Shown here: one piece after another, positions 11,905 through 27,786 of the stretch
Layout: the number at the start of each line of letters is the position of its first letter
How positions within the stretch are numbered: position 1 is the first letter of the stretch
Source of the DNA: Alphaproteobacteria bacterium
GTDB lineage: Bacteria; Pseudomonadota; Alphaproteobacteria; Rhizobiales; Rhizobiaceae
Reading direction: 5' to 3'
Assembly: GCA_024742485.1 (NCBI GenBank)
Contig: JANSYK010000001.1
Coordinates: 620,001-684,000 of the forward strand
Length of the DNA: 64,000 nt
Translations under genes and position numbers: made by a program
The notes under the pieces: generated by a model
Told to the model about the DNA's origin: nothing
The model's input: the letters and a program-made list of their open reading frames with translations, nothing else
The model's database searches: none

Positions 11905-12609
11905 TCAGTGCTGCTCCAACAGCCGTCCAAAACCGCGGATGGGATCGGTGATGCCCACATGCCGCAAGGTCTGCCAGTAGACGGCGGCGTTACAGGCAAC
12001 GATCGGTTTGCCATGCGCGTCCTCCAGTTCTTCAATCAGCGCAACGACCGGCAGAGCGGTTCCAACCTGCAGGATCGCATCGCATTCAGCCGCGGCCACA
12101 TCCGCAAAAACGTTGCGGATGTCTGACAGCGAAGTCTCGCAGATCGCGGGCAATGTCGGAGCCCGTGTTCCCTTGATTGCAACCACCTGGAAATCCGCCG
12201 CCTCGGCATTTGCCTTGACCACGGCATCAACCTCTGCGTCAAACGGTGTCACAATGCCAATCCGCCGAGCGCCGAGACGGCGCAGCGCCGCGTAATCTGC
12301 ATACGACGCACTGATGAGCGGCACACCGATTTGCTTTGAAACCGCTTCGCAACGTTTGCTCAGTTTTTCGGGTCCTCCAGGACCTGCGTCTGTCGTCAGG
12401 CCGACCGCAATGGCGCGGGGTCCGCAATCCAACAGTTTTTCAGCCTCCTCCGGCAGATCATCGGAGACGGAATCACCGCCCAATCGAAACCGCTGCATCT
12501 GATTGGTCACGCCGTCCGGGCGCAGCAGTTCAAGTTCCGGTTGGACCACCGTATTCATGGCCGGTGTCATGACGCCGATCACGGCGCGCGGGGCGAGCGT
12601 ATCAGGCAT
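11905..12609 (-). CDS. Asp/Glu racemase superfamily protein (maleate isomerase / arylmalonate decarboxylase-like)
   Basis: A 234-residue protein of the Asp/Glu/hydantoin racemase fold, closest in layout to maleate cis-trans isomerase and arylmalonate decarboxylase. The N-terminal GVMTPAMNTVVQPE and the C-terminal IVACNAAVYWQTLR segments are typical. Cys206 is the C-terminal catalytic cysteine. The N-terminal cysteine of the two-base racemases is absent: the corresponding loop reads GLTTDAGPGG. A single-cysteine site is what arylmalonate decarboxylases have, so decarboxylation or isomerisation is more likely than racemisation. It overlaps the upstream SRPBCC gene by 8 nt and touches the flavoprotein gene downstream. 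Confidence 0.8.
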   Translation of the reverse strand: MPDTLAPRAVIGVMTPAMNTVVQPELELLRPDGVTNQMQRFRLGGDSVSDDLPEEAEKLLDCGPRAIAVGLTTDAGPGGPEKLSKRCEAVSKQIGVPLISASYADYAALRRLGARRIGIVTPFDAEVDAVVKANAEAADFQVVAIKGTRAPTLPAICETSLSDIRNVFADVAAAECDAILQVGTALPVVALIEELEDAHGKPIVACNAAVYWQTLRHVGITDPIRGFGRLLEQH

Positions 12610-13045
12610 TATTGCTCTCCTTCAAAAACAGGTTCAGTCCGGTCATACCGCCGATGTAAATCTCATCGCCGACCACACGATCCATCTCGGCACTATCCGC
12701 TGCAGCACATTCAAACCGGCTCTCCCAGATACCAAGTGTCTGGTTGCTGTCGGTGATCGGAATGAACCGGTGCGTTGAGACATAGCCGGTCACCGGCAGT
12801 GGGCTCTCGAGGATGTCGTAGGTGTAGAAGTTTTCGACATCCGAATGTGCCAGCAGGGTTTCGCGAAAGACCGTGCCGTCGGCGATATTCAACCGGCGTA
12901 TGGTGCCGGTTGCTGTTGCGCCGCCCCCCTCCAGCAGCGCTTCGACCACACCCGGGTTCCATGCGGCAACACCATCGAAAGCGCGAATGGTGGACCAGAC
13001 CCTGTCGATCGGAGCGTCTAGGATCATGCTGCGAAATACCTGCAT
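12602..13045 (-). CDS. SRPBCC (polyketide cyclase/START-like) family protein
   Basis: A 147-residue single-domain protein of the SRPBCC ligand-binding fold. It opens with SMILDAPIDRVWSTIRAFDG, the standard first strand and helix of the family, followed by AAWNPGV, and has the long C-terminal helix from about residue 115. Such proteins bind hydrophobic or aromatic ligands or act as small cyclases and dehydratases. Its position between an MttB-family methyltransferase (11 nt upstream) and the racemase-family gene (8-nt overlap) suggests it handles an intermediate of the same pathway. No catalytic residues can be assigned. Confidence 0.8.
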   Translation of the reverse strand: MQVFRSMILDAPIDRVWSTIRAFDGVAAWNPGVVEALLEGGGATATGTIRRLNIADGTVFRETLLAHSDVENFYTYDILESPLPVTGYVSTHRFIPITDSNQTLGIWESRFECAAADSAEMDRVVGDEIYIGGMTGLNLFLKESNNA

Positions 13046-13056
13046 TTGGCTTCCTT

Positions 13057-14574
13057 CTAGGCTTCAAGGCGGATTGGATAGGCGGCGCGAATAGCTTGCT
13101 CGGCGTCGCGGCTCAGATGGGTGGATGGCGGGCGGGCCAGAATATCGGCAACCCGCGCCTGCGCCCGGTCCCAGATCGACCGCCGACCCGCGTCAACCCA
13201 GTCATCGACGCTCTGGCGATCGGCGAGCGCCGGATAATAAAAGTCTGACTTCATGCGCTTCAGCGTCTCCGCCTCTCCAAGGTAATGCCCGTCCCGCGTG
13301 ACCACCCGGTCAATTGAGCCCAGATCAAGAGTGGCGTCGGAAACTTCAATTCCTCTGATCGAACGGAGAATGGCACCGCACATGTCGTCGTCGATCACCA
13401 TGGCTTCCGGACTTGCAACCATGATGGAGCCCAACATGCCAACGGACAGGTTGATCATGTCCGCTCCGCCGTGTCCGGCCATGGCGACCGTATAGCCCTT
13501 CTCATATCCGGACTGCGCATCCGCAAGTTTTGAATCCGTCATGCCGGCCGAAACGGTTGATGGAAGGCCGAGATGCGCCAATAGCTGCGCGGCGGCAGCG
13601 CTGGCGATCGCGGCTTCTCCACCGCCACCGCTCATCGCGCCCGTGCGCAGATCGGAGATGAACGGCATGAAAGCGTAGATGCAGGGTGCCCCCGGCCTGC
13701 ACCCGTCGACAACCATCAATCCCGCCAGACACTCTGCCAGACCTTGGGCCAGAGCACCGGCCAATGTGACCGGGCTGGTCGCGCCCGCCTGCCCGGCTGA
13801 GCAGATTTGCGGGATCATGCCTGCACCGATCGCCTCTTCCAGTGTCGCGACACCCTCCGCAGCAAACGTCAATGGTGGCACCACATGAACAATCACCGCC
13901 ATGCAGAAGGGCCTGTCCCGAAAGAGACCGGAGCCACCGAGCGCCATGTCAAACATGTCGACAATCGGACGAATGTGATCAGCATCGCAAAAACTGACAC
14001 CAATCGGCTTGGCAGTTGCCTTCATGCAGGCGAAGGCCGAATTCACGTCGAGTTCAAATGGATCAGCCAGATCCCTGGCAACGACCGGACGCACCCCATA
14101 GTGAATATGCGGCGAAGCCTCGAGAACACGCATCATGTCATGGAGGTCAGCCAGGCTGCTTTCGCGATAGGTTCCGGTTGCCGCATCCAGCACCCGAACC
14201 GCCGCACCGCCGGTTCCGATATGCACCCGACCACCGCCTATCTGGAGATCCCTTTCAGGAGAATATCCCGGAAGATGAATCTGATCGGGTGCACGCGCGC
14301 AGGCAGCGCAGACCATCTCTTTCGGAAAACACAGACGACCATCCGCCCGGTACCACGCGCCCTGTCGCAGCGCCCGTTCAGCCGCAGCTTGAGGCAATCC
14401 AGACATGCCGACGGTCGCAAGGATATCGAGCGCGTGATCAACGATCCGGGAAACATCCGCCGACGACAGCGGCCGCAATCGGCCACCGACAAAAATCTCC
14501 GGCGTCTCGCCAATGCCGGAACCATTGTCTTTGGCCTTTCGCCGCACTGTCCGTCTCGCCATGTCTGGGTCCAC
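13057..14574 (-). CDS. Trimethylamine-methyltransferase family protein (MttB superfamily, non-pyrrolysine)
   Basis: A 505-residue member of the MttB superfamily, first gene of the four-gene leftward operon. Family signs are LSSADVSRIVDHALDILATVGM near residues 36-58, the PIGVSF segment near 194 and the C-terminal DFYYPALADRQSVDDWVDAG. The frame contains no internal amber codon, so it belongs to the non-pyrrolysine branch, whose studied members demethylate glycine betaine, carnitine or proline betaine onto a corrinoid protein. No corrinoid-binding protein or reductive activator is encoded in this window, so its partner must be elsewhere or it works differently. The start is a GTG at 14574 or an ATG at 14562. 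Confidence 0.85.
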   Translation of the reverse strand: MDPDMARRTVRRKAKDNGSGIGETPEIFVGGRLRPLSSADVSRIVDHALDILATVGMSGLPQAAAERALRQGAWYRADGRLCFPKEMVCAACARAPDQIHLPGYSPERDLQIGGGRVHIGTGGAAVRVLDAATGTYRESSLADLHDMMRVLEASPHIHYGVRPVVARDLADPFELDVNSAFACMKATAKPIGVSFCDADHIRPIVDMFDMALGGSGLFRDRPFCMAVIVHVVPPLTFAAEGVATLEEAIGAGMIPQICSAGQAGATSPVTLAGALAQGLAECLAGLMVVDGCRPGAPCIYAFMPFISDLRTGAMSGGGGEAAIASAAAAQLLAHLGLPSTVSAGMTDSKLADAQSGYEKGYTVAMAGHGGADMINLSVGMLGSIMVASPEAMVIDDDMCGAILRSIRGIEVSDATLDLGSIDRVVTRDGHYLGEAETLKRMKSDFYYPALADRQSVDDWVDAGRRSIWDRAQARVADILARPPSTHLSRDAEQAIRAAYPIRLEA

Positions 14575-14930: not shown

Positions 14931-15692
14931 ATGGTGCGCAGCCTTTGGGCATTGGTTCTTGCCCTATCATGGACAGCAACACTCATTGCACGTCCGGCAT
15001 TGGCCGAAACGGTTGTCGTAAACACGCTCGAATGGCCTCCCTATACCTCTGCCGAATTACCCAGAGGTGGCGCGACAACCGACGTTATCACCCAGGCATT
15101 CGCTGCCGCTGGTATTGAATCAGACGTCAAATACCTTCCGTGGAAACGGGCCATTTCGTCGGCGAAAGATGACGGGTCCGTCGCCGGTTATTTTCCAGGC
15201 TACCACTGCCGCCATGTTGAAGGATTCATAGCGTCCAATCCGATTGGTGCCGGCCCGCTGGGCTTTGCGGAGCATACAAGTGCACCGGTGACATGGGAAA
15301 GCATTGACGACATTGGTAAGCAGAAGCTGAAAATCGGCACGGTACTTGGATATTCGAACACCGATGAATTTGACGAAAAGGCAGGCACCGGATGGATTCG
15401 GTCCATTCCTGCGCCCGACGACCTCACGAACTTGCGCAAGCTTGTGCGCCAGCGCATCGATATGGCGGTGATCGACAAGCTGGTGCTATCCTACATTCTC
15501 GCAACGGAGCCATCCCTGTCGGACGATGCCGACAGCCTGCAATTCAATGCGCGTCCGCTGGAGGACAAGACACTCTATCTTTGTTTCATCGACGATGAAG
15601 CGGGCCGCGCGATGCGCGACATTTTCAATGCTGGACTGGCGACGATCGACATTGAAAAGACAGTCGAAGACTATTTTGAAAACCAGTTCTGA
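14931..15692 (+). CDS. Periplasmic solute-binding protein (SBP_bac_3 type), sensor-associated
   Basis: A 253-residue exported binding protein. ATG 14931 is preferred because GGGAGG precedes it and a clean Sec signal peptide follows (hydrophobic core about 5-20, cleavage after ALA near residue 24). The mature part has LEWPPYTSAELPRGGATTDV, YLPWKRAI and GYFPG, typical of the polar-amino-acid family of type II binding proteins. It has no ABC permease or ATPase neighbours. Instead its TGA overlaps the ATG of a hybrid histidine kinase (TGATG). This points to a role as ligand receptor presenting a small molecule to the kinase rather than as a transport component; that is inference from context. Confidence 0.88.
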   Translation: MVRSLWALVLALSWTATLIARPALAETVVVNTLEWPPYTSAELPRGGATTDVITQAFAAAGIESDVKYLPWKRAISSAKDDGSVAGYFPGYHCRHVEGFIASNPIGAGPLGFAEHTSAPVTWESIDDIGKQKLKIGTVLGYSNTDEFDEKAGTGWIRSIPAPDDLTNLRKLVRQRIDMAVIDKLVLSYILATEPSLSDDADSLQFNARPLEDKTLYLCFIDDEAGRAMRDIFNAGLATIDIEKTVEDYFENQF

Positions 15693-18530: not shown

Positions 18531-18890
18531 TTGAGTACGGATATCATTGATGACAATGCCATCCGCCGGTTGCTGAGCGTCATTGGCGGCGACCGGGAGG
18601 ACTTTCTCGAACTGATGGAGGAGTTCGAGGAATCGACTCCCCTTCTGGTCGACAAGATGAAGCAGGCGGCGACCGAGGCCAATATCGACTCGTTGCGCAT
18701 TTCAGCCCATAGTCTGAAATCAAACGCCCGGGACTTTGGAGCGGTCCAACTCGCATCCCTGTGCGAGGCGCTTGAACTGGCCTGCAAAAACCAGGACGTG
18801 CCCGCTCCGGTCGACAAAGTCGCCGAGATCGAACAGGCACTTGAGGCAGCACGCGAAGCACTTCGAGGAATGACGCTCCCCGATGTTTGA
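18531..18890 (+). CDS. HPt phosphotransfer protein
   Basis: A 119-residue histidine phosphotransfer domain. The four-helix pattern is visible and the phosphorylatable histidine lies in AHSLKSNARDFGA (His60 from the TTG start at 18531). The start is uncertain: TTG 18531 has AAGGGG upstream, while ATG 18477 would overlap the kinase gene by 17 nt. The gene lies between the hybrid kinase and the receiver-permease and overlaps the latter by 8 nt. It should carry the phosphate from the kinase receiver to the next receiver, the role HPt proteins have in known phosphorelays. Confidence 0.9.
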   Translation: MSTDIIDDNAIRRLLSVIGGDREDFLELMEEFEESTPLLVDKMKQAATEANIDSLRISAHSLKSNARDFGAVQLASLCEALELACKNQDVPAPVDKVAEIEQALEAAREALRGMTLPDV

Positions 18891-20430
18891 GGCCTCGATG
18901 TTGCCCAGTGAGGAAGTCGAAACGACCGGCGCCCACATCCTGGTTGTCGACGACAACAGCCTCAATCGCAAGAAAATGCGAATGGCCGTTGAAACACTTG
19001 GCCATGCGGTGGAAACGGCAGACAATGGAGCCACGGCACTTGAGATGCTCAATGCCGCCAGCTTCGATGCCGTCCTGCTGGACATCATCATGCCTGAAAT
19101 CGACGGCTTCGATGTTCTGCAGGCCTTGAAGGATGATGAGATATTGCGCGATATCCCCGTCATCGTAATTTCGGCCCTTGATGACGAGACGGAAAGTGTC
19201 GTCAAGGCCATCGAACTTGGCGCGGAGGATTTCCTCCCGAAGAATTTTGATCCCGTCCTTCTAAGGGCGCGCTTGGGGGCATCTCTGGCGAAGAAAAAGT
19301 TCCGTGACCAGGAACGGGAGTATTTCAGCCGGATCGAACGCCTGACGGAGGCAGCCGAGGTACTGGAGGGCGGTCGGTTCGCGCCGGAGGATCTTGGTCT
19401 CGACGATCTGGCCGCCCATGACGATCCGCTCGGGCGTCTTGCCGGGGTCTTTCGCGGCATGGCCGTCGAGATATATGAGCGTGAACTCAAGCTTCGCCGG
19501 GCAGTTCAGACCCTGCAGGGCAGTTTCCTTGTGCTGGCGGTCGGCCTGGTGTGGGGATTGACGCCCGCCCTCTCCCGCATGGCCTCGGGTTTGGGGTCCA
19601 ATCCCCTTGGACTGGCCGTCTGGGTCAATGCCATTGCCGCCCTGTTCTGCCTCTCGATCGCGATATATCGCGGCAAGTTTCCACGCCTGACCGGGCGGGA
19701 GTTCATGTTCTTCTTTGGCTGGGCAATCCTGGCCGGTATCCTGCAACGCATGACCACGTTCATCGTTACCGAGCATGTCGAGGCGGCAATGCTGTCCCTG
19801 ATCGTGACCCTCCAGGGCTTCATGGTGTTCGGTTTCGCCGCCATCACCAAGATCGAGCGCGCCACGCCGCGGCGGCTGATCGGTCTCCTCGTCGGGCTTT
19901 TCGGGGTATCGATCGTGCTGCTGACCCGCTTCAACACGGGCGGTGGCGGTGGCAGTGGAAATGCCTGGCTTTTCTTTGCCATGCTCCTGCCATTGCTGTT
20001 TGCCTTCGAGGCTCTTGTGCTTGCCGGCAAGCGTCCCGAACATGTCGACACATTCGCATCCGTGGGCATCATGATGGCCCTGTCGGCCATGATGCTCGCG
20101 CCCCTCGCCTACGTGACCGGCGACCTGATGCCACTTCGCCTGGAGTTTGGCCGTCTTGAATTCCTGGTTATCCTGATGGGAATTGTCGGAGCGGCATCGC
20201 TGCTCCTTTCGTTCCACCTGATCGCAACCGCCGGGGCCGTCTTTTACAGTCAGACGGCCTATGCCATGACAATTGCCGGTGTGGTCTGGGGAATGCTGCT
20301 GCTCAATGAGGAGCTGTCAGTCGTCGCCTGGGTGGCTTTCGCCGTCATAGCGGTCGGGATGTACCTCGTGGAGCCGAAAAGCGGTGATCGCGAAGTGGTG
20401 ATACAGCGCTCGTTCCGGGACAATGGCTGA
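18883..20430 (+). CDS. Receiver domain fused to a ten-helix EamA/DMT-superfamily permease
   Basis: A 515-residue chimera. Residues about 18-135 are a complete CheY-like receiver: ILVVDDNS acidic pocket, phospho-acceptor Asp67 in LLDIIMPEIDG, and the conserved lysine in LPKNFDP. A charged, largely helical linker follows (about 136-205, rich in E, R, L and A). From about 207 to 500 there are ten hydrophobic segments in two five-helix halves, as in EamA drug/metabolite transporters. It has no DNA-binding or enzymatic output domain. The start codon overlaps the HPt gene by 8 nt, so it is made with the relay. The natural reading is a permease gated by phosphorylation. Transported compound and direction are unknown. 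Frame and codon use are continuous across the junction, so this is not a sequencing fusion as far as can be seen. Confidence 0.9.
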   Translation: MFEASMLPSEEVETTGAHILVVDDNSLNRKKMRMAVETLGHAVETADNGATALEMLNAASFDAVLLDIIMPEIDGFDVLQALKDDEILRDIPVIVISALDDETESVVKAIELGAEDFLPKNFDPVLLRARLGASLAKKKFRDQEREYFSRIERLTEAAEVLEGGRFAPEDLGLDDLAAHDDPLGRLAGVFRGMAVEIYERELKLRRAVQTLQGSFLVLAVGLVWGLTPALSRMASGLGSNPLGLAVWVNAIAALFCLSIAIYRGKFPRLTGREFMFFFGWAILAGILQRMTTFIVTEHVEAAMLSLIVTLQGFMVFGFAAITKIERATPRRLIGLLVGLFGVSIVLLTRFNTGGGGGSGNAWLFFAMLLPLLFAFEALVLAGKRPEHVDTFASVGIMMALSAMMLAPLAYVTGDLMPLRLEFGRLEFLVILMGIVGAASLLLSFHLIATAGAVFYSQTAYAMTIAGVVWGMLLLNEELSVVAWVAFAVIAVGMYLVEPKSGDREVVIQRSFRDNG

Positions 20431-20453: not shown

Positions 20454-22700
20454 CTAGGCCGCGGTTCGTCCCGGCCTGTTGGGTGGATTGGCAGCGCCAG
20501 GGCTCATCATCAGCAGATTATCAAATCCTTCGGCATAGAAGTCGGTCAGATAATCGGTTATCAGCTTTTCCTCCGGCTGCACGACAGAGAAGATCATCTC
20601 CACATTGTGCTCGCCAAGCAATTGTTTGACACCTTCGGAAGTGGCCGGTCCGCATTCGATCACCACGATATCATAGACATCGGCGATCGCATCCAGCACC
20701 CGCGGCAAGTCGGATGAATGATCCATTGCCTTGATCGGATCGGTTGTTCCCTGCGGCAGAATATGGGCGTTGGACAGCCTGTCAGCATGCAGGGCCTCTG
20801 GCGTGGTGCATTCGCCGGCCAGCACGTTCGTTATGCCAGGAAGGTCGGACTGCGGCGCCATCATGCGGCTCGGGCAGGCCGAACCAGTCATGTCGACCAG
20901 CAAGGTCTGTTGCCCCTCATTGGCAAGCATGCGTGCCAACATCACGGAAACCGTCGACCCCTTGTCGCCTTCCGGCGAAACAACGACGGCGATGGGCGTT
21001 TGCTTGGCGATCAGGTGACCCGCAACCGCGCTGACACTGTATTCCGCATCGGGCTCGACAATCAGCGCATCCGTTGGAAATTCGGAAACCGGCGCTGTGT
21101 AGAGTGAGGAATCATTGGCGCTCTCATAGCGGTTGTGATGCATCTCAACCATCTCTGCCGAAGGTCTCTCCTCCGGCGCGTCAGGGAGGATCTCCCGATC
21201 GAATTCGGCCTGTTCTGCAATCGGATCCGGCGCCTGGCTCTCGGCAGCAATGAATTCAGGCTCAAAATCCCTGTCCTCTGCAACAGGCCCCGGTCTGGCG
21301 ACCGGACGAAGCCCCTGCCCCGCGAACAGTTCACGCAGCATGATGACAATGGACGACAGCAGAAAAGTCGCCAGCGCTGCAATGATCGTGATGGGGATCG
21401 GTTTCGGGAAATAGGCCTTGGCAGGAACAATGGCGCCGGCAATCACCCGAGCATCGGCCGGAAGATTGCCTCGATCCGATCGGGATGCCGCTTCCCGGTA
21501 GCGGCTGAGATAGGCCTCAAGCAGATCACGCTGCGCGGTGGCTTCGCGTTCAAGTGCCCGCAGCTCCACTTCCTCGCCGCCGGCTCGGGCTGAATCGGCT
21601 TTCAATGCGTTGAGCTGGGCAACCAGTTCCTCCTCGCGCAGGCGCGCCAGTTCGGCTTGATTTTCCAGACCGCGCAGGATCTTCCCGGCCTCGGCCTTGA
21701 TTTGCGCATTGATGTCACGCAACTGCGACCGCAACCCCTTGATCCGTGGATGTCCGTCGAGCAGCGTTACCGACAGGTCAGCGATATTGGACTGAATGTC
21801 AGCTTGCCGGTCGCGAAGCCGGTCGATCACATCCGAATCGACAAAATTGGAAAGAGCCTCGGATGTTTCACCTCGTTCAACAGCCTGTTTGACCACCACG
21901 GCTCTTGCCTGGGCATCAGCTTTCTCGGCACGAACGCGGCCAAGTTCGGTTGAAATGTCGGAGAGCTGCCGGCTGGCAAGGCTCGCATTGTCATCAACCA
22001 TCAGCAGACCGAATTCCGCGCGATAGTCAGCGACCTTTTCCTCCGCAAGCCGCACACGATCCCGCAACTCGGCGATCTCCGGCTCCAGCCAGGCTGTTGC
22101 ATCGACATTGGAAACGAGCTTGGCGCCACTTTGCATGGCCAGGTAGGTTTGCGCCATCGTATTGGCGACGTCGGCTGCCAATTGCTTGTCCGTGGACCAG
22201 AATTCGATCACGATCACGCGCGAATTGGACACCTGATAGACCGTCAGATGTTCACGGAAAGTATCGATCAGCCGCTCCTCCGGCGGCGAGGTATAGGGAT
22301 CCTGGGAAAGGCCGACTGCTGCCATGATGCTTGTCAGCATGGATGGGTGCGCGGCTGCACTGAATTCGGGCTGATCGGCCAGATCGAGTTTGGCGGCCAC
22401 CGCGGCAATCAGATCCGTGGAATTGATGATTTCGACCTGGCTTGCGACACCGCGCTCATCGAGAAACTGCGCCTGCCCGGTTTCACGGGGTGTCGATTCT
22501 GAAAAGACCGGCTCGCGGTTTTCGATCAGTATCCGTGTTTCACCCAGAAAACGCGGCGAAATGAAACTCGAGACGACAAACGCAGCGGCTGCAACGATCA
22601 ACACGAGGGACAGGACTGCAATACGCCTTTCCCAGACCGCTGCGAACAAGCGCGCGATATCAATATCTACATCCTGGCCACTCGATTCCCGGCGGGACAT
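20454..22700 (-). CDS. Exopolysaccharide transport protein, ExoP/Wzc/GumC-like
   Basis: A 748-residue inner-membrane polysaccharide co-polymerase. An N-terminal Wzz domain starts with the helix around residues 27-48, a long periplasmic coiled coil (about 190-400) follows, then a second helix near 440 and a cytoplasmic kinase-like domain. That domain is unusual: its P-loop reads SPEGDKGSTVS rather than the GEGKST form, the Walker A-prime segment is LLVDMTGS, and no tyrosine cluster ends the protein. It may therefore lack tyrosine autokinase activity. It controls export and chain length together with the Wza-like lipoprotein encoded divergently and the downstream polysaccharide genes. Confidence 0.87.
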   Translation of the reverse strand: MSRRESSGQDVDIDIARLFAAVWERRIAVLSLVLIVAAAAFVVSSFISPRFLGETRILIENREPVFSESTPRETGQAQFLDERGVASQVEIINSTDLIAAVAAKLDLADQPEFSAAAHPSMLTSIMAAVGLSQDPYTSPPEERLIDTFREHLTVYQVSNSRVIVIEFWSTDKQLAADVANTMAQTYLAMQSGAKLVSNVDATAWLEPEIAELRDRVRLAEEKVADYRAEFGLLMVDDNASLASRQLSDISTELGRVRAEKADAQARAVVVKQAVERGETSEALSNFVDSDVIDRLRDRQADIQSNIADLSVTLLDGHPRIKGLRSQLRDINAQIKAEAGKILRGLENQAELARLREEELVAQLNALKADSARAGGEEVELRALEREATAQRDLLEAYLSRYREAASRSDRGNLPADARVIAGAIVPAKAYFPKPIPITIIAALATFLLSSIVIMLRELFAGQGLRPVARPGPVAEDRDFEPEFIAAESQAPDPIAEQAEFDREILPDAPEERPSAEMVEMHHNRYESANDSSLYTAPVSEFPTDALIVEPDAEYSVSAVAGHLIAKQTPIAVVVSPEGDKGSTVSVMLARMLANEGQQTLLVDMTGSACPSRMMAPQSDLPGITNVLAGECTTPEALHADRLSNAHILPQGTTDPIKAMDHSSDLPRVLDAIADVYDIVVIECGPATSEGVKQLLGEHNVEMIFSVVQPEEKLITDYLTDFYAEGFDNLLMMSPGAANPPNRPGRTAA

Positions 22701-23176
22701 GGCATATCACTCCAAACGACAATTGCCCGAAAGGTAAAGCCACATGGTAACGTAAGGGTTAAGCCGGTCTTTACCGATCATTTACATCTCGCCACCCGCC
22801 AAACACGGTTTCCGCCGCGCAGGCTGCGTGGTGAAGATTGACAAAAGCAGGCGGTTACCAGCTGGGCAGTCAATCGACCGGCATCCATTTCACTGGGCCG
22901 CTGTGTGGCCAATCTGCGGCATTCCCTCATCGCGTTCGGGACGCAACACCTTTGCCTGCCGGGAAATGCCGGCCTTCAAGGCGGTCACTGCTCCATCCTG
23001 ACAAAGCGCGCAAGAGATCCCAGCCTTCGTATTGCGTTCGAGTTTGCCGAATGTGCCGCGCAGCGATGGCCAGAGCATGTGATGATGGAAAATTGCACGC
23101 ACTTTACCGCCCATTAACCTTAACCGGAGGATAAAGACGAACGATTTTTCGTTTAATGCTTTCAGAGTGTGCAACC
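22701..23176. other. Divergent intergenic region between exopolysaccharide genes
   Basis: About 476 bp between the ExoP-like gene and the Wza-like gene, with no supportable coding sequence. The end nearest the Wza-like gene contains CATTAACCTTAACCGGAGG around 23114-23132, a direct TTAACC repeat that could be a regulator site, and the other end has TAACGTAAGGGTTAAG near 22747. Both divergent promoters must lie here. Confidence 0.4.
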
Positions 23177-23752
23177 ATGGCGATAGGAAAAGTAAACAAG
23201 ACCATTGTTCTGGTTCTGGCCAGTGCCGCGGTTCTGCTGGCTGGATGTTCCGGCTACCGACCGGCGCCTGAAGCGTTTCATCGCGCCGTGATCGAGCCCT
23301 ACCGTCTCGATTCCGGTGACAGCTTGCGCATTACCGTCTTCGAGCAGGCTGATCTGACAAACACCTATGCCATCGATCAGGCCGGATACGTGGCCTTCCC
23401 GCTCATCGGTTCGGTCAGCGCCAGGGGCCGCACCGTCCAGGAACTGGAAAACCAGATCGCCGTGAAACTACGCAAGGGCTATTTGCGCGATCCCGACGTC
23501 TCCATACAGGTCGACCAGCACCGCTCCTTTTTCATCATGGGTGAAGTCAATTCGGCCGGACAGTATTCCTATGTCCCCGGAATGAATGCCCAGAACGCCA
23601 TTGCCATTGCCGGCGGCTACACCGCACGCGCGAACCAGGCGAATGTCGACATTACCCGCAAAGTCAACGGCGAAGTCATGACCGGACGGGTGACGATCTC
23701 AGATCCCATCTTGGCCGGTGACACCATTTATGTCCGCGAACGCCTGTTTTAA
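23177..23752 (+). CDS. Polysaccharide export lipoprotein, Wza/OMA family
   Basis: A 191-residue outer-membrane polysaccharide export protein. ATG 23177 begins a lipoprotein signal peptide with lipobox LLAGC near residue 22. The mature part has the poly_export domain (YRLDSGDSLRITVFEQADL), then a SLBB domain with FIMGEVNSAGQYSYVPGM. It is shorter than E. coli Wza and has a single SLBB unit, as the ExoF-like rhizobial proteins often do. It probably works with the ExoP-like protein encoded divergently. A glycosyltransferase gene follows 20 nt downstream. Confidence 0.9.
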   Translation: MAIGKVNKTIVLVLASAAVLLAGCSGYRPAPEAFHRAVIEPYRLDSGDSLRITVFEQADLTNTYAIDQAGYVAFPLIGSVSARGRTVQELENQIAVKLRKGYLRDPDVSIQVDQHRSFFIMGEVNSAGQYSYVPGMNAQNAIAIAGGYTARANQANVDITRKVNGEVMTGRVTISDPILAGDTIYVRERLF

Positions 23753-23772
23753 CCGCAAGGACCGCATTTGCG

Positions 23773-24915
23773 ATGTCGACAGACAGACCACTGCGCATAT
23801 TGCACTGCTTTCGCTCGCCCGTGGGTGGTATCTTCCGCCATGTGCGTGACCTTGCCGAGCAACATCATCGCGCCGGACACAAGGTCGGCATCCTGTGCGA
23901 CAGCACCACCGGCGGCTCCTATGAGGATGCGCTGTTCGACACGATCACACCGTTTCTGGATCTCGGACTCACCCGAACGCCAATCCGTCGTGCCATCGGC
24001 CCGGCAGACATTGCGACAATTGTTCGATGTTCAGGAGAAATCAAGAGTTTGCAACCGGATATCATTCACGGGCATGGCGCAAAAGGTGGCGCGCTTGCCC
24101 GTGTGATCGGTTCACGATTGCGGGTTTCAGGGTCACGCGTAGCTCGCTTCTATACTCCCCATGGCGGCAGTCTGCATTTCAGCCGCTCAAATCCTGCCGG
24201 GCGTTTCTTTTTTGCACTGGAACGGCTCTTTGAACGGATGACGGACGGCCTCATATTCGTCAGCGAATATGAGGAGAGCCAGTACAATATGAAGGTCGGG
24301 ACACCCCGTCCACCAACGTTTCTTATTTACAACGGTCTTGGTGACACGGAATTTGAGCCGGTTCCAAACCAGCCAGACGCCGCTGACTTTCTCTATATCG
24401 GCATGATGCGGCGGCTGAAGGGGCCGGATATCTTCATCGAGGCCTTCATTCGCGCCGAACGCCTTGTCGGCAGGCCGCTTTCGGCAGTGATGATCGGCGA
24501 CGGTGATGAAAAACCCAGCTACGAGCAGACAATCGTGCAAAGCGGATTGCAGAGACGCATCACAATCCATGCCGCAATGCCCGCCCGGGAAGCGTTCGGA
24601 CGCGGAGCTGTGATGGTTGTTCCTTCTCGCGCCGAATCCATGCCTTACATCGTTCTCGAGGCGCTTGCGGCGGGACGTCCGCTGATCGCCTCGCGTGTTG
24701 GCGGCATTCCGGAGATTCTCGGCACCGACAACCCGGCATTGATCGAGCCGGACAATGCCGATGCGCTGGCAACAGCAATGGCGGCAGCGATATCGGATCC
24801 TGAATCGCTCAATTCGGCAATGCCATCCCGTAGCGACCTGAAATCAAGGTTCTCTGCGGCGACCATGGCCGACGCCATGATCAAGACTTATGTCGCCTGC
24901 CTGGATCAATTGTGA
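23773..24915 (+). CDS. Glycosyltransferase family 4
   Basis: A 380-residue GT-B glycosyltransferase acting in the cytoplasm on lipid-linked exopolysaccharide intermediates. The N-terminal half begins RILHCFRSPVGGIFRHVRDLA with the GGI donor-side loop. The C-terminal half has YIGMMRRLKGPDIFIEAF and the PSRAESMPYIVLEALAAGRP segment containing the E-x7-E motif. It is in line with the Wza-like gene upstream and the priming transferase downstream. Sugar specificity cannot be assigned. Confidence 0.9.
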   Translation: MSTDRPLRILHCFRSPVGGIFRHVRDLAEQHHRAGHKVGILCDSTTGGSYEDALFDTITPFLDLGLTRTPIRRAIGPADIATIVRCSGEIKSLQPDIIHGHGAKGGALARVIGSRLRVSGSRVARFYTPHGGSLHFSRSNPAGRFFFALERLFERMTDGLIFVSEYEESQYNMKVGTPRPPTFLIYNGLGDTEFEPVPNQPDAADFLYIGMMRRLKGPDIFIEAFIRAERLVGRPLSAVMIGDGDEKPSYEQTIVQSGLQRRITIHAAMPAREAFGRGAVMVVPSRAESMPYIVLEALAAGRPLIASRVGGIPEILGTDNPALIEPDNADALATAMAAAISDPESLNSAMPSRSDLKSRFSAATMADAMIKTYVACLDQL

Positions 24916-24979
24916 TCCACACAGGAATCCGCGGTAAAAAGACTATTAAGAGCTTTGTGTTATCGCTGTTGCAACCATT

Positions 24980-26557
24980 GTGACAGACAAAGCTGCTGAG
25001 ATGAGTTTACCAGGACGAAAAAGCGACGGTCAGGCCCAACCGGCACCGGATGACGACACGGTCAAGTCCACCGGAGACGCCGCAAAGCCAGCCAAGGATC
25101 AGGCGAAAGTGGGCGATCTGGCCCGGCAGGTCGCGAAACAACTCGGCGTTGACAACTATTCGCCGACGATGATCACCGGCATGGTGCGTTTCTTCGACTT
25201 CGCCGGATTGAGTCTGATCGGCATTGGAATGTTCCTCATTTACGTCATGCCGAGAAGCGGGTTCGGCGCCTATTATGTGGTCACTTCGGTGATCGGTGCG
25301 CTGCTTGCCGTCTTGCTGCTTCAGATCAGTGATACCTATCAGTTGCAATCTCTCCGGTCACCGCTGCGGGTCCTGGCAAAGATGCTGATGACCTGGACTG
25401 TCGCCTTTGCCATCATGGCGGTCATCGCGTTTTTCCTGAAGGTTGGCGCCGATTACTCCCGGTTCTGGTTTGGATCCTGGTTCCTGGGTGGCGCGATTTT
25501 TCTCTTCCTTGGCCGAAATTTTGTCGCCTTTGCCATTCGCCGATGGGCACGCGACGGAACCATGGAACGCCGCGCCGTCATTGTCGGCGGTGGAGCGTCG
25601 GCCGAACAGCTGATCCGCGCGCTTGAGCAGCAGCCGGACAATGATGTGCGTATCTGCGGCATTTTCGACGATCGCGACAACCGCCGGTCCCCACCGATCG
25701 TTGCCGGTTATCCGAAGCTTGGAAACATCTCTCAACTCGTCGAATTCGCTCGGCTGGTCCGTATCGACATGCTGATCATATCCCTGCCCCTGACGGCGGA
25801 AAAACGCGTCATGGACATGCTGAAGAAATTGTGGGTCTTGCCTGTCGATATCCGGCTGGCCGCCCATTCCAGCGAACTCAGGTTTCGTCCGCGCGCCTAT
25901 TCGCGCATTGGTTCAGTCCAGATGCTGGATATATTCGACCGCCCGATCAATGACTGGGACTCGGTGGCAAAACGCGCATTCGACGTGATTTTCAGCCTGC
26001 TTGGAATCCTTGTTTTCTGGCCGGTCATGCTGGCAACAGCGATCGCGATCAAGGCAACATCCAAAGGCCCGGTTTTCTTCATGCAGAAGCGGCATGGCTT
26101 CAACAATGAAGTTATCAACGTCATCAAGTTCCGTTCCATGTATGCCGATCAGTCCGATCCCGCCGCACGCGTGGTGGTAACAAAGGGTGACCCCAGGGTC
26201 ACGCCGGTCGGACGCTTCATACGACGCACCTCGATTGATGAGCTGCCGCAATTCTTCAATGCGCTGCGCGGCGATCTGTCTCTCGTCGGACCCAGACCCC
26301 ACGCCGTCCTGGCGCAAACCGATGACAGGCTCTTCGCGGAGGTCGTAGACGGCTATTTTGCCCGCCACAGGGTCAAACCCGGTGTCACCGGCTGGGCCCA
26401 GATCAATGGTTGGCGCGGCGAAGTCGACGATGATGAAAAGATCAAGCAACGCACCGCGTTCGATCTCTACTACATCGAAAACTGGTCTTTGCTGTTCGAT
26501 TTGAAGATCCTGTTTCTGACGCCCTTCAGGCTCCTGAATTCGGAAAACGCCTATTGA
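24980..26557 (+). CDS. Undecaprenyl-phosphate sugar phosphotransferase (polyprenyl glycosylphosphotransferase)
   Basis: A 525-residue WcaJ/PssY-type priming enzyme that moves a hexose-1-phosphate onto undecaprenyl phosphate, the first step of polysaccharide repeat assembly. It has an acidic N-terminal tail, four helices (about 60-175), a Rossmann-like middle domain (VIVGGGASAEQL) and the C-terminal catalytic domain with KRAFDVIFSLLGIL, KFRSMYAD, RRTSIDELPQFFN and GDLSLVGPRP. The start is a GTG at 24980 or an ATG at 25001; neither has a good ribosome site. Its stop overlaps the TTG start of the polymerase gene. Confidence 0.92.
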   Translation: MTDKAAEMSLPGRKSDGQAQPAPDDDTVKSTGDAAKPAKDQAKVGDLARQVAKQLGVDNYSPTMITGMVRFFDFAGLSLIGIGMFLIYVMPRSGFGAYYVVTSVIGALLAVLLLQISDTYQLQSLRSPLRVLAKMLMTWTVAFAIMAVIAFFLKVGADYSRFWFGSWFLGGAIFLFLGRNFVAFAIRRWARDGTMERRAVIVGGGASAEQLIRALEQQPDNDVRICGIFDDRDNRRSPPIVAGYPKLGNISQLVEFARLVRIDMLIISLPLTAEKRVMDMLKKLWVLPVDIRLAAHSSELRFRPRAYSRIGSVQMLDIFDRPINDWDSVAKRAFDVIFSLLGILVFWPVMLATAIAIKATSKGPVFFMQKRHGFNNEVINVIKFRSMYADQSDPAARVVVTKGDPRVTPVGRFIRRTSIDELPQFFNALRGDLSLVGPRPHAVLAQTDDRLFAEVVDGYFARHRVKPGVTGWAQINGWRGEVDDDEKIKQRTAFDLYYIENWSLLFDLKILFLTPFRLLNSENAY

Positions 26558-27786
26558 AAACCGCGACAGCCACATATGAGCCGCAGATCCGAGTCTTAGG
26601 CCCGGCGATCAGCAGGTTTCTCCTGGGCATCGGAGCGTTTTTGACCGGTTTCGTGATGAATGAACCGGCGCCCTACGAACTCTATCTTGTGGTTCTCATC
26701 GCGATCTGGTTCCTGTTCGGACTCAAAATCTCAGCAACCAGCGCGATCCCGTTGACTTTACTGATTATTTTCAACATTGGCGGCATGCTGTCTCTGACCA
26801 CCATGAATGTGCTGGAGAGCAACGACTACCTTTATGTTGCAGTGTCGCTGTTTCTGGGCCTGTCGACGGTGTTCTTTGCCGCCGTCATCGAAGAAGACGG
26901 TGAGCGTCTGGCCACCATATTCAACGCCTATATTCTTGCGGCATTGATCACCGCCATGTTTGGCATATTGGGCTATTTCGGCGCCATTCCCTCGGCCGAA
27001 TCCTTCACACGCTACGGCCGCGCCATGGGGGTCTTTCAGGACCCGAATGTCTTTGGCCCCTATCTGGTGCTGCCCTGTTGCTATCTGGTCTACCGGATGC
27101 TGACCGGCAAACTCGCCACCATGCCGCTGCGTCTTATCGCGCTGCTGGTCCTGAGCGTGGGTGTGTTTCTGTCTTTCTCGCGCGCGGCATGGGGGCTCTA
27201 TGCTTTCAGCATGGCCATGCTGATCATGCTGTTGCTGCTGCAGGAGCGATCACCGCTGTTTCGCATGCGGATATTTCTGCTCGGGATCGCGGGCTTCACC
27301 GTCATTGCCATTGCACTGTTGATCGCACTGCAATTCGACCAGGTCTCTGAACTGTTCGCAACACGCGCCCAGCTTGTACAGGACTATGACAGTGCCCGGT
27401 TCGGCCGTTTCGCCCGCTACGGGCTCGGCTTTGCCCTCTCAATGGAAAAGCCACTGGGGATCGGCCCCGTTGAGTTTGGCAAGATCTACGGAGAGGACAC
27501 CCATAATATCTGGCTCAAGGCCTTGATGGACTATGGATGGATCGGTTTTGTCGCCTTCCTGACGCTGGTCGTCTGGACGCTGGTCGCCGGATTCAAATGC
27601 CTGCTGCGGGACCGGCCCTGGCGACCCTATTTCATCTGCATCTATACCGTTTTTCTGGGCCATATCCTGATCGGCATGGTCATCGATATTGACCACTGGC
27701 GGCACTTCTACATCCTGCTGGGAGTCATATGGGGCTGTATCGGCCTTGAGCAGCGCTATCAGCGACGCCGATTCTACGCAGCCTGA
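26554..27786 (+). CDS. O-antigen ligase/polymerase-like membrane protein (Wzy-like)
   Basis: A 410-residue protein with about 11 hydrophobic helices. The family pattern is the Wzy_C segment, with a periplasmic loop around GRFARYGLGFALSMEKPLGIGP and the following EDTHNIWLKALMDYG, where the histidine is typical of polymerases and ligases. It starts at TTG 26554, overlapping the TGA of the priming transferase by 4 nt, so the two are translationally coupled. It most likely polymerises the repeat unit of the exopolysaccharide. It is the last intact gene of the cluster before a decayed region. Confidence 0.88.
   Translation: MKTATATYEPQIRVLGPAISRFLLGIGAFLTGFVMNEPAPYELYLVVLIAIWFLFGLKISATSAIPLTLLIIFNIGGMLSLTTMNVLESNDYLYVAVSLFLGLSTVFFAAVIEEDGERLATIFNAYILAALITAMFGILGYFGAIPSAESFTRYGRAMGVFQDPNVFGPYLVLPCCYLVYRMLTGKLATMPLRLIALLVLSVGVFLSFSRAAWGLYAFSMAMLIMLLLLQERSPLFRMRIFLLGIAGFTVIAIALLIALQFDQVSELFATRAQLVQDYDSARFGRFARYGLGFALSMEKPLGIGPVEFGKIYGEDTHNIWLKALMDYGWIGFVAFLTLVVWTLVAGFKCLLRDRPWRPYFICIYTVFLGHILIGMVIDIDHWRHFYILLGVIWGCIGLEQRYQRRRFYAA

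Follow-up and report, generated by a model that had tools for sequence, protein, structure and literature searches.

In the window, i.e., the whole stretch of 64,000 nucleotides analysed here, one gene encodes a response-regulator receiver (REC) that is joined through a HAMP-like linker to a carrier of the EamA family, and this gene follows directly on a set of phosphorelay genes (Table 1). The preliminary description had noticed the fusion of a receiver to an EamA permease. It is noted that this observation is right and that the matter is larger than was described, since the fusion represents a conserved family, has a HAMP-like relay and belongs to a self-contained phosphorelay cassette. The interpretation offered there, in which phosphorylation of the receiver directly gates the export or import of a metabolite, is, as a whole, partly supported.

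Table 1. Features of the phosphorelay cassette and of the fusion gene, in positions of the window.
Feature	Position	Strand	Basis and remarks
Putative periplasmic solute-binding protein	14931..15692	+	Start set by likeness to the protein of G005, a genome of the same genus; mechanical ORF from 14658
Hybrid histidine kinase, 933 aa	15692..18493	+	Membrane sensor (weak CHASE5), PAS, HisKA, HATPase, two receivers
Free-standing Hpt protein	18531..18890	+	Pfam Hpt, E 2.1e-15; start TTG 18531 or ATG 18435
REC-HAMP-like-EamA fusion, 515 aa	18883..20430	+	ORF and translation, Pfam, relatives
Receiver domain, residues 19-131	18937..19275	+	Pfam Response_reg, E 2.9e-26
Asp67 codon	19081-19083		Within the receiver domain of the fusion
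HAMP-like linker, residues 150-197	19330..19473	+	Pfam HAMP, E 0.01; 30/47 linkers at E <= 0.1; NarQ matches
EamA carrier, ten predicted membrane helices, residues 213-496	19519..20370	+	Pfam EamA, E 5e-17; hydropathy

The fusion gene runs in a single frame from an ATG to its stop, with 515 codons and no internal stop, and the claim that one continuous frame holds both receiver and EamA is thus borne out. In the protein, Pfam finds Response_reg and, in two stretches, EamA, and at E <= 0.01 it finds no other family. At this threshold the DNA-binding, enzymatic and protein-binding outputs usual for response regulators are absent, in agreement with the earlier statement that there is no DNA-binding or enzymatic output, and the kinase, SLC5 and STAC families, features of the CbrA type, are absent too. 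The receiver had been called complete, with an acidic pocket, Asp67 and the conserved lysine, and the pocket of the window protein indeed consists of Asp23/Asp24, Asp67, Ser97 and Lys120, the acidic pocket, acceptor Asp and conserved Lys of a response regulator all being present. In a 52-row alignment of fusion receivers (50 fusions, including L062, which is cut by the start of its contig, and the two non-fusions L085 and L091), Asp67, Ser97 and Lys120 each occur in 52/52 rows and Asp23 and Asp24 in 51/52, the sole exception fitting the cut L062. A receiver with a lost active site, which was also considered, is ruled out by these kept residues.

Relatives of the fusion occur widely. The genome G005 carries a full-length fusion that is 77% identical to that of the window, and plasmid pML2037 of Mesorhizobium loti NZP2037 and two plasmids of Mesorhizobium sp. 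carry copies that are 41-43% identical and annotated as 'response regulator' (the plasmid copy of Mesorhizobium 131-3-5 is known from a database listing entry). A scan of one genome per species over 84,980 species, seeded with the peptides AIELGAED and FLPK[ND]F[DE]P, returned 63 loci with 47 single-frame fusions, L062 among them; six further loci are broken or cut and were left out unmended (L073, L074, L076, L082, L083 and L084), and ten (L085-L094) have the receiver and no EamA match at E <= 1e-5. Since the scan started from two peptides it gives a minimum count, and the Asp or Asn that follows Lys120 is partly selected by the second peptide. With these copies, it has practically no probability that REC-EamA is an assembly chimera, a frameshift artefact or a chance read-through joining two genes: nothing in support of this was found in the window, full-length copies at 36-77% identity occur in separately assembled genomes, the linker is conserved between relatives, and dN/dS is well under 1 in all three parts. 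The artefact is already refuted by the independent copies. The preliminary description had named, among findings that would undo it, that homologues are separate genes everywhere and that the junction is an assembly error; the first is excluded by the relatives that are fused in single frames (47/63 scan loci), and the second by the copy in G005 together with the 47 single-frame copies.

The gene neighbourhood was analysed in a set of 50 fusion loci, comprising the 47 scan fusions, the window, G005 (L021) and the M. loti plasmid (L025), without the near-identical plasmid copies and the fusions from later searches of the phylum and a family. In HMM searches of flanks of up to 7 kb, with HMMs seeded from two or three of the loci counted, both a hybrid kinase and an Hpt protein are found at 48/50 loci, the others being L062, where the contig starts inside the gene, and L080. 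With the same HMMs, the numbers of kinases and Hpt proteins around 32 stand-alone EamA genes are 0 and 0 in flanks of up to 1.5 kb (only 68 bases at L004, 756 at L118 and 894 at L029). Because the control flanks are shorter than those of the fusions, the fair comparison is that at 1.5 kb, within which the kinase is found at 45/50 fusion loci and the Hpt at 46/50. The check proposed earlier, whether such fusions always sit beside HPt and hybrid-kinase genes, is thus answered by 48/50 loci against 0/32 for stand-alone EamA, and a partner kinase or Hpt encoded nearby, as expected for a response regulator, is the rule.

The cassette is also coherent in its details. The motif SHEIRTP is present in 48/48 kinases, which have one or two receivers each, and the His..Lys motif in 48/48 Hpt proteins; at L075, L078 and L079 the Hpt lies inside the kinase protein itself. 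In the window the Hpt frame overlaps the start of the fusion by 8 bases, and an overlap of 1-8 bases is seen in 25 of the 44 loci where the Hpt frame ends no more than 100 bases from the fusion start. The window genome as a whole has 31 HisKA matches and four Pfam Hpt matches, three of the latter within long frames, so that the only free-standing Hpt is the one that overlaps the fusion. G005 has the same order of binding protein, kinase, Hpt and fusion amid different surrounding genes, and the Mesorhizobium plasmid copies lie directly after a GAF-domain gene, which on pML2037 is a hybrid kinase, and an Hpt gene. Moreover, the distances computed for EamA, receiver, linker, kinase core and Hpt are correlated across 48 loci (0.63 to 0.86), and none of 500 permutations attained the value of any pair, which is what a unit inherited together should show; in the Hpt HMM used for these distances one of the three seeds, that of the window, was in the wrong frame. 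From this context, the fusion is very likely the terminal receiver of the relay. It could instead be supposed that the main target of the relay is an unlinked DNA-binding regulator and that REC-EamA is a side branch, as extra receivers in some loci (frames in L038, L051 and L058) and Trans_reg_C in 3 of 74 flanking proteins might suggest; but the kinase and Hpt adjoin the fusion at nearly all loci and other free receiver genes are absent from most of them, making this supposition very improbable.

By contrast with the conserved output end, the input end varies. The solute-binding protein of the window has no Pfam match, and the binding-protein profile finds nothing credible among PDB sequences (4 matches at E 0.18-0.43); an HMM of the window and G005 proteins finds, at 9e-29, a protein of L040 that Pfam assigns to SBP_bac_3 (5.9e-14), and eight copies of the window type were aligned. 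A binding protein lies within or beside the cassette at 27/50 loci (window type 10, DctP-like 8, SBP_bac_3-like 8, SBP_bac_5 1, typed by Pfam directly for part of the loci and by phmmer for the rest), a Tll0287-like protein is found at seven other fusion loci, and neither is found at 16/50, some of which are cut by contig ends. Similarly, the N-terminal parts of 47 kinases match PAS_7 (24), HAMP (24), GAF (12), CHASE5 (12) and TorS_sensor_domain (8). This variation suggests that the input has been swapped while the Hpt and REC-HAMP-EamA stayed together. The solute-binding proteins had been missed in the earlier account of the locus.

In some cassettes more than one output is encoded. A second REC-EamA gene is present in the neighbourhood at L033, L035, L052 and L063, and G1030 and G1064 have two copies side by side, these paired genes being tandem or convergent. 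A receiver-adenylate/guanylate cyclase is encoded divergently inside the cassette at L040 (5043-6101, -) and L081 (4994-6085, -), and a receiver-GNAT acetyltransferase near the cassette at L071 (5675-6661, -) and L077 (12159-13112, +); with the fusion-receiver HMM the receivers of both kinds score 164-172 bits. These second carriers, cyclases and acetyltransferases suggest that one relay may serve several outputs, including two carriers. It is noted in passing that receiver-GNAT is itself an unusual output for a response regulator. At L052 the two fusions are followed by a gene of 382 aa that was considered as a binding protein; this was ruled out, as it encodes an IS256 transposase.

As to the substrate, no shared metabolic neighbour that would name it was found: among the families listed (25 of 104), none occurs in more than 5 of the 74 flanking proteins, which were hand-picked from 156, encoded by genes called with a third-base heuristic rather than a gene finder, with mainly binding proteins, Hpt and short ones left out. 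At L080, the one complete fusion locus where kinase and Hpt are absent (from the 15 kb around it), the fusion lies about 130 bases downstream of a co-directional gene run that encodes the two subunits of sulfopyruvate decarboxylase (TIGR03845 and TIGR03846, each above its cut-off) as well as a HisD-type dehydrogenase, and this arrangement (L080:2154-8239) hints at an organosulfonate as a possible substrate. Note also the surroundings of the window cassette. Upstream lie genes of the MTTB family (13057-14574, -), of a polyketide-cyclase-like protein (12602-13045, -) and of the Amdase family (11905-12609, -), where G005 has different genes. Downstream, the set at 20454-27786 opens with a Wzz/AAA_31 protein (Pfam), followed by a polysaccharide export protein and glycosyltransferases by reading of the frames, and probably represents an exopolysaccharide cluster that has nothing to do with the cassette.

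The fusions of the scan come, by the taxa labelled in the records, mostly from alphaproteobacteria, including Rhodobacterales, with Roseibium, Defluviimonas, Frigidibacter, Ruegeria, Roseovarius, Mesorhizobium, Rhizobium and Devosia among the hosts; the remaining ones come from MAGs of Granulosicoccaceae, from a single Pseudomonas and from some less certain bins. A cassette also lies on a contig labelled as a Rhodothermales MAG (L037), where the fusion shares 69% identity with that of the window; misbinning seems likelier here than transfer. In a tree built by maximum likelihood from 51 EamA domains of fusions and 32 of stand-alone proteins, the latter being loci that the search returned rather than a full sample, all 51 fused domains lie on one side of a single branch (support 100/100; present in 100% of 200 bootstrap trees) whose stem has 0.83 changes per column, and receivers in the 32 stand-alone loci number 0. 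On this tree the fused EamA domains are one clade, of one origin. The window protein clusters with those of Defluviimonas and Frigidibacter (99/91), and the larger group around them includes Roseibium and G005; a model of 47 rows finds the fusion in 2/8 genomes of the window's genus. These two results together point to transfer of the cassette between families.

The family is patchy, since few genomes carry it: besides the 2/8 of the genus, the 47-row model finds fusions in 3/398 genomes of the phylum and in 7/394 of the family of G655, and a search of 385 genomes of the class with a two-row model gave no additional fusion. In the 398 genomes of the phylum the scores are bimodal, with the fusions of the three genomes at 459-546 bits from model position 1, and the other 24 matches (E <= 1e-30) at no more than 228 bits, starting at position 65 or later with most of the linker missing. 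Two frames at L003 and L005 (G040 and G051) have a receiver 45-49% identical to that of the window followed by an apparent class III cyclase, as judged by eye, and such receiver-cyclase frames are a possible source of the fusion receiver.

The stretch between the receiver and the first membrane helix (TM1) had been described as a charged helical linker. It looks like a HAMP domain, a likeness that had been missed; the reading as a plain coil is replaced by a HAMP-like one on account of Pfam and the NarQ matches. Scanned alone, the window linker gives 16.6 bits with Pfam HAMP, under the Pfam cut-off of 25, and among the 47 linkers scanned in this way a match at E <= 0.1 is found in 30 (best 2e-6) and not found in 17; among the 47 full-length proteins, HAMP is matched at E <= 0.001 in 4. 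When the linker profile is compared with PDB sequences, the top matches are three NarQ sequences at E 0.05, over residues 175-230, which we take to be the HAMP domain of NarQ. The conserved pattern, LTxAAxxLExGxFxP ... DxLGxLAxVFxxMA ... YERE, looks like the HAMP layout of two helices and a connector, and the linker of the fusion thus appears to resemble a HAMP domain.

This likeness bears on the direction of signalling. HAMP domains normally relay signals from the membrane to the cytosol, with the first helix as the usual input side and the second as the usual output side. In the fusion, the receiver is attached to the first helix of the linker and the membrane part comes after the second, and this geometry favours signalling from receiver to carrier. 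It is conceivable that the signal runs the other way, i.e., that EamA senses a metabolite or a flux and, via the HAMP-like part, sets the gain or loss of phosphate by the receiver, feeding back on the kinase. The usual membrane-to-cytosol direction would suit this reversal, but the attachment of the receiver to what is usually the input helix does not. Carrier domains that sense do exist, an example being the SLC5 domain of the histidine kinase CbrA (according to the available part of PMC8871633). Against this, the loci already own sensors, in their kinases, and related receivers encoded there have enzymes as their output, namely a cyclase and an acetyltransferase. We regard the reversed direction as quite unlikely and retain that from receiver to carrier.

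We now consider the carrier itself. The two EamA halves with ten helices of the preliminary description are recovered: the EamA profile gives 62.9 bits, with a curated cut-off of 28.2, over two repeats, and hydropathy averaged over 47 homologues shows ten peaks within residues 213 to 496 (an eleventh, at residues 61-79, falls within the receiver and was left out of the helix count). In the alignment used, A5 (the window and 46 fusions, with L062, L021 and L025 left out), Response_reg and EamA are both matched in 47/47 members, EamA at E <= 0.001. In the hydropathy-based topology, 14 Lys/Arg after TM1 fall in predicted cytoplasmic loops and 3 in outer loops, and the receiver and linker are therefore placed in the cytoplasm; judged from hydropathy alone, the fusion has the ten helices with both ends inside that are typical of EamA. 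In eight close pairs with enough changes, dN/dS is 0.04-0.16 in EamA and 0.07-0.19 in the receiver (L047/L048 and L056/L057 have too few changes, L040/L081 is saturated in EamA and window/G005 is near saturation), and the EamA part of the fusions is under purifying selection. A search for PDB relatives of the window linker and EamA by phmmer gave 0 at E <= 1; the sole match of the 47-row profile, 4qnd, was weak (E 0.32) and was not used as a structural relative.

Certain residues set the fused carriers apart. Pro288, Gly302 and Pro312, which occur in 97, 100 and 94% of the 32 stand-alone EamA relatives (a near-invariance of these close kin, not of the whole Pfam EamA family), are lost in the 51 fusions, where the commonest letters are Gln (31%), Ser (37%) and Gly (90%), respectively. 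The loss sits in the EamA repeat adjoining the HAMP-like relay. Such a change may reflect a new gate or a new substrate, or else the loss of transport, and with these residues gone transport is possibly altered or lost, which weakens the version of the fusion as a plain transporter. One may thus suppose that EamA no longer transports and is a membrane anchor or platform for the receiver, serving the relay as a sink for phosphate or as a docking site. The lost residues, the long stem branch of the fusion clade and the absence of a shared metabolic neighbour (within the flanking proteins and families listed above) would fit such a role. It is nevertheless rather unlikely, because the ten helices are kept under the low dN/dS given above, Glu325 and Glu476 are present in 51/51 fusions, several loci have two different fusions, and the fusion of L080 lies behind a catabolic gene run where the relay genes are absent. 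We therefore prefer the reading that phosphorylation gates transport, which the architecture suggests and to which, mainly because Pro288, Gly302 and Pro312 are lost, we give only somewhat better than even confidence.

Based on the above, we propose the following pathway, in which the fusion would be a membrane-embedded response regulator ending a four-protein phosphorelay. Firstly, as the gene order suggests, the periplasmic binding protein would take its solute and act on the hybrid kinase. Secondly, the kinase would phosphorylate its own receiver, and the phosphate would pass via the free-standing Hpt to Asp67 of the fusion, as may be expected because the active-site residues are intact and 48/50 loci keep the three proteins together. 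Thirdly, phosphorylation would alter the pairing of the receivers and thus shift the HAMP-like coiled-coil relay that leads into TM1, in line with the HAMP likeness. Finally, and this is the least certain step, the EamA carrier would be opened or closed. As a result, a solute outside would set, rapidly and with no transcription involved, the flux of a metabolite through the inner membrane. We consider the whole chain, from binding protein through hybrid kinase and Hpt to a REC-HAMP-EamA protein with a transport output, to be somewhat more probable than not on the sequence evidence. It stands about evenly poised whether there is, more generally, a patchy but widespread class of response regulators with transport as output that turns a solute signal into flux with no gene-expression step, by an orphan binding protein, a hybrid kinase, an Hpt and a receiver that gates a carrier via a HAMP-like relay, and in which one relay may drive two carriers or a carrier plus a cyclase or acetyltransferase.

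Known outputs of response regulators include DNA binding, enzymatic activity and docking. If the pathway is true, a conserved phosphorelay ending in a carrier would add transport to these, would link solute sensing to flux rapidly and at the post-translational level, and would offer a system for studying how a receiver and a HAMP-like module drive a transporter. With its three or four genes the cassette is compact, and since isolates carry it, it is directly testable; by the labels of the records it is carried by isolates of Ruegeria, Defluviimonas, Mesorhizobium and Devosia and by uncultured Roseibium.

We now compare the fusion with known systems. TorS signals to a DNA-binding regulator. As in sensing of the TorT-TorS type, a binding protein accompanies a hybrid kinase in or beside the cassette (at 27/50 loci), and the cores of the cassette kinases match the TorS and BarA models, with TorS_sensor_domain in 8/47 N-terminal parts as noted; the neighbouring output of the cassette, however, is a carrier rather than a DNA-binding regulator. 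The regulators REC-cyclase, REC-acetyltransferase and REC-GGDEF have the same kind of receiver as the fusion, whereas in the fusion a HAMP-like relay connects the receiver to an output that is an integral membrane carrier. With the EamA drug-metabolite transporters (PF00892) the fusion shares the two repeats, the ten helices and the two glutamates, but it is covalently joined to a receiver, forms its own clade and has lost the three residues discussed above. NarQ and other membrane kinases have HAMP linkers, and NarQ 175-230 is the best PDB match of the linker profile, but in the fusion the HAMP-like part sits between a cytosolic receiver and TM1 and not after a membrane helix. Among the open-licence papers listed for this subject, no title or abstract describes a receiver-EamA protein, an older mention in a domain table being possible; in the available part of PMC12487129, the receiver and EamA terms occur in different rows of a table. 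Among known ideas CbrA comes closest; like CrbS, it has a carrier domain in a two-component protein, as the fusion does. As far as the available part of PMC8871633 describes them, CbrA and CrbS have the SLC5 carrier on the kinase, i.e., at the input end, while the fusion has EamA on the final receiver, at the opposite, output end of the pathway.
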